Source: Pannonibacter carbonis | GTDB taxonomy: Bacteria > Pseudomonadota > Alphaproteobacteria > Rhizobiales > Stappiaceae | NCBI RefSeq assembly: GCF_003012935.1 | Contig: NZ_PUDR01000006.1 | Location: forward strand, 1 to 64,000 | Reading direction: 5' to 3' | DNA: 64,000 bases | Shown: positions 25,838 through 27,105 of the stretch, piece after piece | How positions within the stretch are numbered: the first letter of the stretch is position 1 | Layout of the letters: each line of letters begins with the position of its first letter | Translations under genes and position numbers: made by a program | The notes under the pieces: generated by a model | Seen by the model: the letters and a program-made list of their open reading frames with translations, nothing else | Databases searched by the model: none | Told to the model about the DNA's origin: nothing

Positions 25838-25981
25838 CGCCTTGCGGGAATTGCATGCCAGTCATGCAGACGCGGATCTTCTCGCAAATGCGAAGAAGGC
25901 GTAGATAAGGGTCATCGGAACGGCGCTGCACCGCACAACGGAAAGCTGACAGCCGCTCCTGAAGGTTCAAGGATCGGACAA

Positions 25982-26131
25982 ATGATCAATTCCGTCGTTC
26001 GCAAATACAACTCGTGGGTCAACTACCGCCGCACGGTCGAAGAGCTGTCCCGCCTGTCCAACCGCGAGCTGAGCGACCTGGGCATCGGCCGCGGTGACAT
26101 CGAGTTCATCGCCCGCCGCGCCAGCCGTTAA
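25982..26131 (+). CDS. DUF1127 micro-protein, copy 1 (CcaF1-like)
   Basis: A 49-residue basic protein containing the DUF1127 pattern YRRTVEELSRLSNRELSDLG, with IGRGDI and an arginine-rich end (IARRASR). AAGGA lies eight bases before the ATG. In Rhodobacter sphaeroides the DUF1127 protein CcaF1 is co-transcribed with the CcsR small RNAs and binds RNA; other rhizobial members affect phosphate and carbon metabolism. Here the gene is followed after 23 nt by three hairpins with CCUCCUCCC-type loops, so the same arrangement applies. It has its own upstream region after the uvrA terminator. The protein is probably cytosolic. A paralogue (26 of 49 residues identical by my alignment) follows 450 nt downstream. 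Confidence 0.92.
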   Translation: MINSVVRKYNSWVNYRRTVEELSRLSNRELSDLGIGRGDIEFIARRASR

Positions 26132-26154
26132 GCGGTTTCAGACTACAAGAATCG

Positions 26155-26277
26155 CGATCCCGGGCTTTCCTCCTCCCAGGCCCCGGATCGTGTGAGACGG
26201 CGGGTTCTTCTCCTCCCAGCCCGCCTGACTAAACGACGCCCGCCGGTACCTCCTCCCACCGGCGGGCGTACGTTTTT
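26155..26277 (+). ncRNA. Triple CCUCCUCCC stem-loop array 1 (cuckoo/CcsR-like small RNAs)
   Basis: Three consecutive hairpins expose anti-Shine-Dalgarno loops. (a) 26155-26190: CGATCC/GGATCG plus GGGCTT/AGGCCC stem, loop with CCTCCTCCC at 26169-26177. (b) 26199-26225: GGCGGGTT/AGCCCGCC stem, loop with TCTCCTCCC. (c) 26236-26269: perfect 12-bp stem ACGCCCGCCGGT/ACCGGCGGGCGT, loop CCTCCTCCC at 26249-26257, then ACGTTTTT, so the last hairpin doubles as an intrinsic terminator. In Rhodobacter, homologous CcsR RNAs are cut from a transcript shared with the DUF1127 gene and are induced by stress through RpoH-type sigma factors. Processing and promoter use in this organism are inferred, not seen. 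Confidence 0.85.
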
Positions 26278-26282
26278 CCAAG

Positions 26283-26342
26283 ACCCAGTCTGCACGATAC
26301 CCAGTCTGCACGATACCCAGTCTGCACGATACCCAGTCTGCA
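26283..26342. repeat. 16-bp tandem direct repeat, 3.75 copies
   Basis: The unit ACCCAGTCTGCACGAT repeats without any variation at 26283, 26299 and 26315, with a partial fourth copy (12 nt) at 26331-26342. It lies between the two DUF1127 transcription units, just after the first terminator. It has no spacers, so it is not CRISPR. Exact identity of the copies suggests recent slippage expansion. Confidence 0.95.
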
Positions 26343-26376: not shown

Positions 26377-26582
26377 GCTGCCTTGCCGGGGACGCGGCTC
26401 TGCCTGGATCTCACCGCACAGGCTAACGGGTCTTAACGACGCCCTGCAGGGATCGCAGGGCTGTCATGACGAGCCGGCACTGGCAAGCCAGCTAAAGATC
26501 ACCTATCTGTATCCCAACGAATTGAGGGCAGATGCCCCGATCCAATCTCCTGATCAAAACAAGCAAGAAGAAAGGTAACATC

Positions 26583-26732
26583 ATGCTTCATGATCTCGTC
26601 TCCAAGTACCGCTCGTGGAAAAAGTACCGCGAAACCTATGATGAACTGGCCCGCATGTCCTCGCGCGAGCTGAATGACATCGGCATCTCCCGTGCCGACA
26701 TCGGTTCCATTGCCCGGCAGGTCATGCGCTGA
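26583..26732 (+). CDS. DUF1127 micro-protein, copy 2 (CcaF1-like)
   Basis: Another 49-residue DUF1127 protein with YRETYDELARMSSRELNDIG, ISRADI and the C-terminus IARQVMR. GAAAGG lies seven bases ahead of the ATG at 26583; the longer open frame from 26532 is not supported. Same length and domain placement as copy 1, so the two arose by duplication of the whole unit, RNA hairpins included. The basic W-x-x-Y-R-x-T helix suggests nucleic-acid contact, as reported for CcaF1. About 206 nt separate it from the preceding terminator, leaving room for its own promoter. Confidence 0.92.
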   Translation: MLHDLVSKYRSWKKYRETYDELARMSSRELNDIGISRADIGSIARQVMR

Positions 26733-26974
26733 CATCGGACGGGGGGCGACCTTACGCGCCCTTGCCGAGCGGAAGAATGCTCCCCGACAGGGGGCATGGT
26801 TCAGGGGTGATCCCAACAGCGAGGATCGCCCGGACCAGACTTCGGATCCAGGCAGCGCCGCACGTGCTGCTCTGCAACATGAACAGGGCAGGCATGCAGA
26901 ATTGTGCATGGCGCGCCGGCTCCGGACAAATTATCAAGAAAACAACACGGGCGGCGCCAAGCTGCCCCGATCTT
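26733..26974. other. Spacer between DUF1127 copy 2 and its hairpin array
   Basis: About 240 bases with no gene. One hairpin is visible (ATGCTCCC / GGGGGCAT, 26777-26797, with one G-U pair) but it lacks a U-tract and the CCUCCUCCC loop. In unit 1 the matching spacer is only 23 nt, so this is either an untranslated linker of a longer primary transcript or a region with its own promoter for the downstream RNAs. Confidence 0.55.
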
Positions 26975-27089
26975 CGGGCCAAAGGACTCCTCCTCCCACC
27001 TGCGGCCCGGCTTCGACCGATCCTCCTCCTCCCGGATCGGCCATCGAAAGAGCGCTTGCCGGTACCTCCTCCCACCGGCGAGCGCTTTT
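26975..27089 (+). ncRNA. Triple CCUCCUCCC stem-loop array 2 (cuckoo/CcsR-like small RNAs)
   Basis: (d) 26975-27009: CGGGCC/GGCCCG and AGG/CCT stem, CCTCCTCCC at 26989-26997. (e) 27012-27048: CCGATCC/GGATCGG stem lengthened by TTCGA/TCGAA, CCTCCTCCC at 27025-27033. (f) 27048-27089: 13-bp stem AGCGCTTGCCGGT / ACCGGCGAGCGCT with one G-U pair, CCTCCTCCC at 27065-27073, followed by TTTT, making it the terminator. Hairpins (c) of array 1 and (f) share an identical core: the same GCCGGT/ACCGGC inner stem and the same loop. The converging lipoprotein gene ends 17 nt past the array. Confidence 0.85.
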
Positions 27090-27105
27090 CGATTCTGGAG
27101 AGCCT

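Follow-up and report, generated by a model that had tools for sequence, protein, structure and literature searches.

Passages of the reports on NfeR1, the ar14 RNA of Sinorhizobium meliloti (Rfam family RF02344), describe the silencing of mRNAs for solute-binding proteins via three redundant anti-Shine-Dalgarno motifs (PMC10746234, PMC8844928), and two targets tested in Sinorhizobium are solute-binding proteins (PMC10746234). The NfeR1 promoter is described in the same passages as carrying an LsrB site, TGCA-N6-GCAT, with activation by LsrB, and a sigma70 core, CTTAGAC-N17-CTATAT (PMC10746234). For the regulator itself, excerpts from the literature give a VtlR/LsrB consensus of GCAT-N3-TG-N3-T (PMC7486931, PMC8844928), a Brucella VtlR-type site, CAATGCAGCCATGCA (PMC12595884), and a trxB-vtlR gene order that is well conserved in the class (PMC7486931). 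Anti-Shine-Dalgarno hairpins are also known from the CIN1 locus ccaF1-CcsR1-4 of Rhodobacter sphaeroides, where they follow a DUF1127 gene. The function of DUF1127 proteins is disputed in the literature: RNA binding has been reported for CcaF1 (PMC10253847), and passages of an Agrobacterium study report protein contact with PhoR (PMC12501420).

The window analyzed here, the whole stretch of 64,000 nucleotides from Pannonibacter carbonis, contains two units, each with a DUF1127 gene and a three-hairpin array:

25982–26131, forward strand: DUF1127 gene 1, 49 aa (PF06568, E 2.2e-15).
26149–26277, forward strand: array 1, predicted ar14/cuckoo RNA with three hairpins and a U-tract (RF02344 at 74.5 bits, fold z −6.93, covariation).
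26153–26192, forward strand: hairpin 1 of array 1, loop CCTCCTCCC (minimum-energy fold).
26199–26225, forward strand: hairpin 2 of array 1, loop TCTCCTCCC (minimum-energy fold).
26231–26275, forward strand: hairpin 3 of array 1, loop CCTCCTCCC, probable terminator overlapping the U-tract at 26273–26277 (minimum-energy fold).
26583–26732, forward strand: DUF1127 gene 2, 49 aa (PF06568, E 1.3e-15).
26969–27090, forward strand: array 2, predicted second ar14/cuckoo RNA with three hairpins (RF02344 at 79.1 bits over the full 123-position model, fold z −5.67, covariation).

The original prediction placed three hairpins, each presenting TCCTCCC, at 26155–26277, and this was correct to within a few bases: the motif starts at 26171, 26211, and 26251, each time within a loop of the minimum-energy fold of 26150–26280, and the hairpins extend from 26153 to 26275. 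The energy of this fold, −66.3 kcal/mol, was equaled by none of 200 shuffles (−42.39 kcal/mol, sd 3.45; z −6.93). Loops 1 and 3 carry the exact nonamer CCTCCTCCC; loop 2 reads TCTCCTCCC, off by a single base, a deviation that recurs in 5/5 genomes of the genus. Exact nonamers number five in the window, all of them inside the two arrays, against 0.95 expected, and none of 100 shuffles contained five or more. Assignment of the loops to the anti-Shine-Dalgarno loops of the cuckoo family, for which a covariance-model search had been proposed as a check, was confirmed by the Rfam ar14 model, which matches 26149–26274 and covers the three hairpins with its positions 1–123, scoring 74.5 bits against a gathering score of 58.8. 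The last hairpin ends in a U-tract, as was predicted, and is terminator-like; a terminator scan that permits loops of 3 to 8 nt only did not list the end of array 1, where the loop is 10 nt. Among distinct hairpins of the family, TCCTCCC is fixed in 33 last and 97 inner hairpins because it was the search key, and the two bases before it, which lie outside the key, are C in 30/33 and 30/33 of the last hairpins and in 76/97 and 92/97 of the inner ones. The loops presumably resemble the host's own anti-Shine-Dalgarno sequence; the 16S rRNA tail pattern was not found in its genome. Just 3′ of the array 1 terminator, a 16-bp unit, ACCCAGTCTGCACGAT, is perfectly repeated in tandem for 3.8 copies (26283–26342); no such repeat was found at the matching place in aligned relatives.

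Conservation of the stems was assessed with 11 first-unit arrays from the family. Pairing was retained in 93.9% of cells (shuffles 85.5%), 13 of 33 pairs changed on both sides (shuffles 8.3), and the covariation score was 0.323 (shuffles 0.173), while sliding the partners by 1 to 3 columns gave 33.9 to 44.2% paired cells, 0 to 3 both-side changes, and scores of 0.044 to 0.116. Further pair types in the same 11 sequences were not above shuffles (22 versus 23.1). For array 2, both-side changes were seen in 8/34 pairs across six genomes. Array 1 thus has the diverging stems with retained pairing that are characteristic of ar14, and the compensatory changes in homologous loci that the original prediction anticipated were indeed present; they indicate that the array 1 structure is under selection. 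These sequence features place the locus in the known ar14/NfeR1/cuckoo RNA family, as a new member in the CIN1 layout.

The hairpins were predicted to follow a DUF1127 gene, and they do: 17 nt separate gene 1 from the Rfam match of array 1 on the same strand, as in CIN1/cuckoo loci, and another unit of DUF1127 gene and array follows 0.8 kb farther downstream. Both ar14 matches of the genome are in the window, as are two of its four DUF1127 genes. A third DUF1127 gene, of 111 aa, lies outside the window (L333, G000:C9:63521) and has a GAAGGAGA ribosome-binding site. An ar14 match was obtained in 46/61 relatives including the organism's own genome, in 29/61 over the cut-off; at least one array is present in 36/37 genomes of the window's family, and two are present in 5/5 genomes of the genus that were searched. 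A DUF1127 open reading frame (ORF) lies upstream of the array in 29 of 36 same-family stretches, the window included, the remaining seven having none by the pattern used. Some relatives have enlarged arrays: eight hairpins in a row lie behind one DUF1127 gene (L047), and four arrays are arranged in tandem (L039). A class-wide search with the Rfam model found ar14 in 9/190 genomes including the window's own (1/190 over the cut-off); because the model is narrow, this figure does not gauge the distribution of cuckoo RNAs.

How such an array would be processed is suggested by its two described relatives. Three separately cut, single-hairpin RNAs could be the active species, in the style of CcsR1-4, which are described as four RNAs cut by RNase E from one precursor (PMC10253847, PMC8307010); we consider this unlikely, as NfeR1, a member of the same Rfam family, is described in the passages on it as one RNA of 115 to 123 nt (PMC10746234, PMC8844928). 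Our preferred reading is that array 1 is an ar14/cuckoo RNA derived from the 3′ UTR of DUF1127 gene 1, and its expression would then depend on the promoter of that gene. An alignment of six genomes 5′ of gene 1 contains a kept block, TTGCR-N6-GCATGNCNGNCATGC, followed by a core resembling CTTCTC-N17-CTATCT, and a related block lies 5′ of gene 2. The predicted promoter elements in the window are:

25839–25870, forward strand: P1, LsrB/VtlR-type site, TGCG-N6-GCAT with inverted repeat GCATGCCAGTCATGC (matrix rank 1; kept in the genus and in G006, another of the genomes compared).
25878–25906, forward strand: P1 core, CTTCTC-N17-GTAGAT (six-genome alignment; CTTCTC-N17-CTATCT or CTAGAT in relatives).
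26441–26472, forward strand: P2, weaker LsrB/VtlR-type site before DUF1127 gene 2 (matrix rank 4, or 3 with even background; kept in the genus).
26503–26508, forward strand: −10 region of P2, CTATCT, 58 nt past the T of the box (alignment).
26869–26900, forward strand: P3, LsrB/VtlR-type site between gene 2 and array 2, in an NfeR1-like position (rank 5, 10.0 bits).

TGCG-N6-GCAT at P1 differs by one change from TGCA-N6-GCAT, and the short LsrB/VtlR consensus occurs there as GCATGACTGGCAT on the minus strand (25855–25867). At P1 the −10 begins 58 nt past the T of the box, with the same spacing as at P2, and transcription from P1 is predicted to start near 25915. GCAT-N3-TG-N3-T, alone too short to inform, is not enriched in the window (11 versus 8.98 expected), and a scan for E. 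coli sigma70 promoters found none at the array 1 locus. A 32-column matrix was derived from 24 named NfeR1-type arrays in which TGCR-N6-GCAT lies 82 to 95 nt upstream of the first loop; in at least three of them (L125, L138, L227), a DUF1127 gene is also present at a greater upstream distance. Over the ∼128,000 positions of the window, P1 ranks first with 21.3 bits, the next best site reaches 12.5 bits, and P2 is fourth; with an even background, P1 is again first, followed by a site inside trmFO (28043), P2 in third, and P3 in fifth place, so that P2 and P3 score far below P1 and are both outranked by the trmFO site. The training sites were chosen with the anchor pattern and the matrix score is thus partly built in; on the non-anchor columns, P1 (6.6) and P2 (4.9) are the best of the window's 22 anchor-fitting sites, the next scoring −2.5.

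The arrangement differs between the two units. NfeR1-type RNAs have an LsrB-type site and a sigma70 promoter directly before the RNA; at array 1 the site precedes the gene, and none was found between gene 1 and the array. Array 2 has an LsrB-type element directly before it, P3, which lies in a block (26869–26936) with TGCTCTGCARCA...CATGCANAATTGTGCATGG that is strongly kept in six genomes, and an AT-rich, −10-like stretch follows 58 nt onward. P3 is probably a separate promoter of array 2, which may accordingly also arise as a stand-alone RNA, like NfeR1.

The element was also sought before arrays in other genomes. A three-loop DNA pattern matched at least 120 stretches, from which no frequencies are derivable; six of 120, whose titles do not name alphaproteobacteria, were left out (L117, L162, L197, L225, L226, L229). 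The 114 named alphaproteobacterial loci among the matches listed comprise the 24 training loci, four excluded for having <300 nt upstream, and 86 test loci, of which 45 have a DUF1127 gene no more than 450 nt upstream of the array and 41 are without one. Among the matches listed, a site of at least 14 bits was present within 650 nt before the array in 40/45 untrained DUF1127-array loci, against 0/658 control windows from the same loci, and at this threshold five of the 45 were without a site. Sites were found in 19/22 Rhodobacterales-type loci and 21/23 others among these matches, the grouping being taken from record titles that are coarse for L115, L141, and L166; in four of the 40 (L135, L177, L203, L205), the top-scoring site is located downstream of the gene and ahead of the array. 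Listed arrays without DUF1127 had a site in 22/41 cases and none in 19/41 (controls 3/589). Within the window's family, the site precedes 29/29 first units and 17/29 later units, or 20/29 if sites between gene and array are counted too. Taken together, a predicted LsrB/VtlR-type element is general to the DUF1127-array loci of Hyphomicrobiales and Rhodobacterales; in the literature searched on it, we found no published report of such an element common to CIN1 loci.

A candidate for the regulator is present in the same genome, where a LysR-type gene of 299 aa lies directly behind trxB in the same orientation. In each of four named rhizobial genomes, its product has a single match with an E value of 1e-60 or better; identity is 65% for Sinorhizobium sp. 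6-70, Agrobacterium pusense, and Rhizobium phaseoli and 63% for Mesorhizobium sp. CU3. The LysR-type gene adjoins trxB in 7/7 genomes examined. This trxB-linked gene likely encodes the regulator of P1.

The original prediction had drawn an analogy to CcaF1-CcsR1-4 of Rhodobacter, which holds for the cuckoo family and the DUF1127 linkage but probably not for regulation, given an LsrB/VtlR-type site and sigma70-like −35 and −10 elements upstream of gene 1. Under a full analogy, RpoH-type sigma factors would control the locus as a stress operon, as for ccaF1-CcsR1-4, where an RpoHI/RpoHII promoter has been reported (PMC10253847), and the LysR-type site would be secondary or inactive. We regard this as improbable. 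A weak RpoH1-like match with three mismatches overlaps P2 (26480–26508), but no match with up to three mismatches was found at P1, and the seven matches in the window compare with 3.56 expected and are equaled in number in 7/100 shuffles, the consensus searched being that of S. meliloti RpoH1 and not that of Rhodobacter. The LysR-type site moreover lies at a fixed distance from the −10, is kept in the genus, and recurs in most of the listed Rhodobacterales-type loci. The promoter of the locus looks like the LsrB/VtlR type, redox-responsive and known from root-nodule bacteria, and not like the heat-shock-factor type.

We searched for candidate targets as occurrences of GGGAGGAG 3 to 11 nt before an ATG, which number 32 in the organism's own genome versus 5 for the reversed pattern (33 versus 7 in G003 and 51 versus 6 in G002). 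Of these, 30 loci were listed for each genome; GAAGGAGA, likewise with 30 listed loci, was the control, and ORFs were counted from 100 aa upward. Of the listed own-genome GGGAGGAG loci, 23/30 start such an ORF, 20/23 with a Pfam family and 8/23 encoding solute-binding proteins; among the control loci listed, 20/30 start an ORF, 15/20 with a family and 1/20 encoding a solute-binding protein. The difference among the loci listed (8/23 versus 1/20) has a one-sided Fisher probability of 0.019 for all ORFs and 0.029 for ORFs with a family, although GGGAGGAG is itself a good ribosome-binding site and the list may thus reflect strong translation. Partners with at least 80% identity were found for 14 of the 23 own ORFs among the 23 ORFs of G003 and for 3/23 among those of G002, all three of them solute-binding proteins. 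Four neighboring genes with GGGAGGAG before the start (L090–L093, G000:C28:48243–51944) encode SoxA-type and class I cytochromes c and DsbD-type and sulfur-transport membrane proteins, which suggests a sox sulfur-oxidation cluster. Transcripts that carry GGGAGGAG sites, many of which encode periplasmic solute-binding proteins and the sox cluster, are probable targets of the array RNAs, and AbcR could share targets with these RNAs. Another control pattern, AAAGGAGG, gave only eight matches and four ORF starts of at least 100 aa (two overlapping, in one gene), with no solute-binding protein; these were too few, and GAAGGAGA was used instead. We also considered whether the array RNAs target the ribosome-binding sites of the two DUF1127 genes themselves, which was not supported, there being no GGAGG within 20 nt before either start.

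We are fairly confident that array 1 is a DUF1127 3′ UTR-derived ar14/cuckoo RNA, activated by LsrB/VtlR and repressing GGGAGGAG mRNAs in trans. By analogy with NfeR1 and CcaF1-CcsR, on which the steps of transcription, cleavage, regulator binding, and target repression are modeled, DUF1127 gene and RNA would be co-transcribed from a sigma70-type promoter activated by the trxB-linked LsrB/VtlR-type regulator, and the transcript would end at hairpin 3. The RNA would be cut from the DUF1127 mRNA, as reported for CcaF1-CcsR, and its loops, CCUCCUCCC or UCUCCUCCC, would anneal to purine-rich ribosome-binding sites, blocking translation in trans. It is improbable that the hairpins act in cis only, as terminator and 3′-end protection with loops conserved for a protein (perhaps DUF1127) and not for mRNA pairing: the array does lie directly in the DUF1127 3′ UTR, and CcaF1 is an RNA-binding protein that influences how the RNAs downstream of its own gene mature (PMC10253847), but arrays without a DUF1127 gene exist (the 41 named test loci among the matches listed), array 2 has its own conserved promoter-like element, and passages on NfeR1 describe action in trans through loops of the same kind (PMC10746234).

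Compared with the described systems, the trans-acting RNA proposed here resembles NfeR1 in its three hairpins, CCUCCUCCC loops, divergent stems, and full-length Rfam match, in its LsrB-type site and sigma70-like promoter, in candidate targets that include solute-binding proteins, and in the NfeR1-like element that array 2 has of its own. Descriptions of NfeR1 are of a stand-alone RNA that has a promoter to itself, whereas array 1 forms part of a DUF1127 3′ UTR with the promoter before the gene, and loop 2 of array 1 is off by one base. What the locus shares with CcaF1-CcsR1-4 is that anti-Shine-Dalgarno hairpins with a terminator come immediately after a DUF1127 gene; the Rhodobacter locus has an RpoHI/RpoHII promoter and four CcsR RNAs, whereas here we find an LsrB/VtlR-type site and three hairpins per unit in two units, and CcaF1 has 71 aa compared with 49 aa for the DUF1127 gene products in the window. 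The VtlR-regulated DUF1127 genes, Agrobacterium Atu1667 and Brucella BAB1_0914, BAB2_0512, and BAB2_0574, are described in passages as likewise small and directly activated by a trxB-linked LysR regulator; unlike here, hairpin arrays behind the genes are not described in those passages (PMC7486931, PMC12595884). By Rfam model, order, and promoter, the closest characterized relative of the predicted RNA is Sinorhizobium NfeR1 rather than CcsR1-4. To this family our analysis adds a shared LsrB/VtlR-type promoter element, a conserved set of candidate targets, and, for array 2, a probable promoter of its own. A known RNA family whose DUF1127-linked form has been studied under RpoH in Rhodobacter thereby gains a probable common regulator, LsrB/VtlR, which has a symbiosis and virulence literature of its own. 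We tentatively propose that DUF1127-cuckoo loci and stand-alone NfeR1-type RNAs of Hyphomicrobiales and Rhodobacterales could be one ancestral regulon, in which a single trxB-linked, redox-responsive LysR regulator would direct a DUF1127 protein and anti-Shine-Dalgarno RNAs that lower solute uptake, with RpoH control as in R. sphaeroides being a later change or an added input. If this is true, NfeR1, CcsR/CcaF1, and the VtlR-controlled DUF1127 genes are one regulon described by three lines of work.
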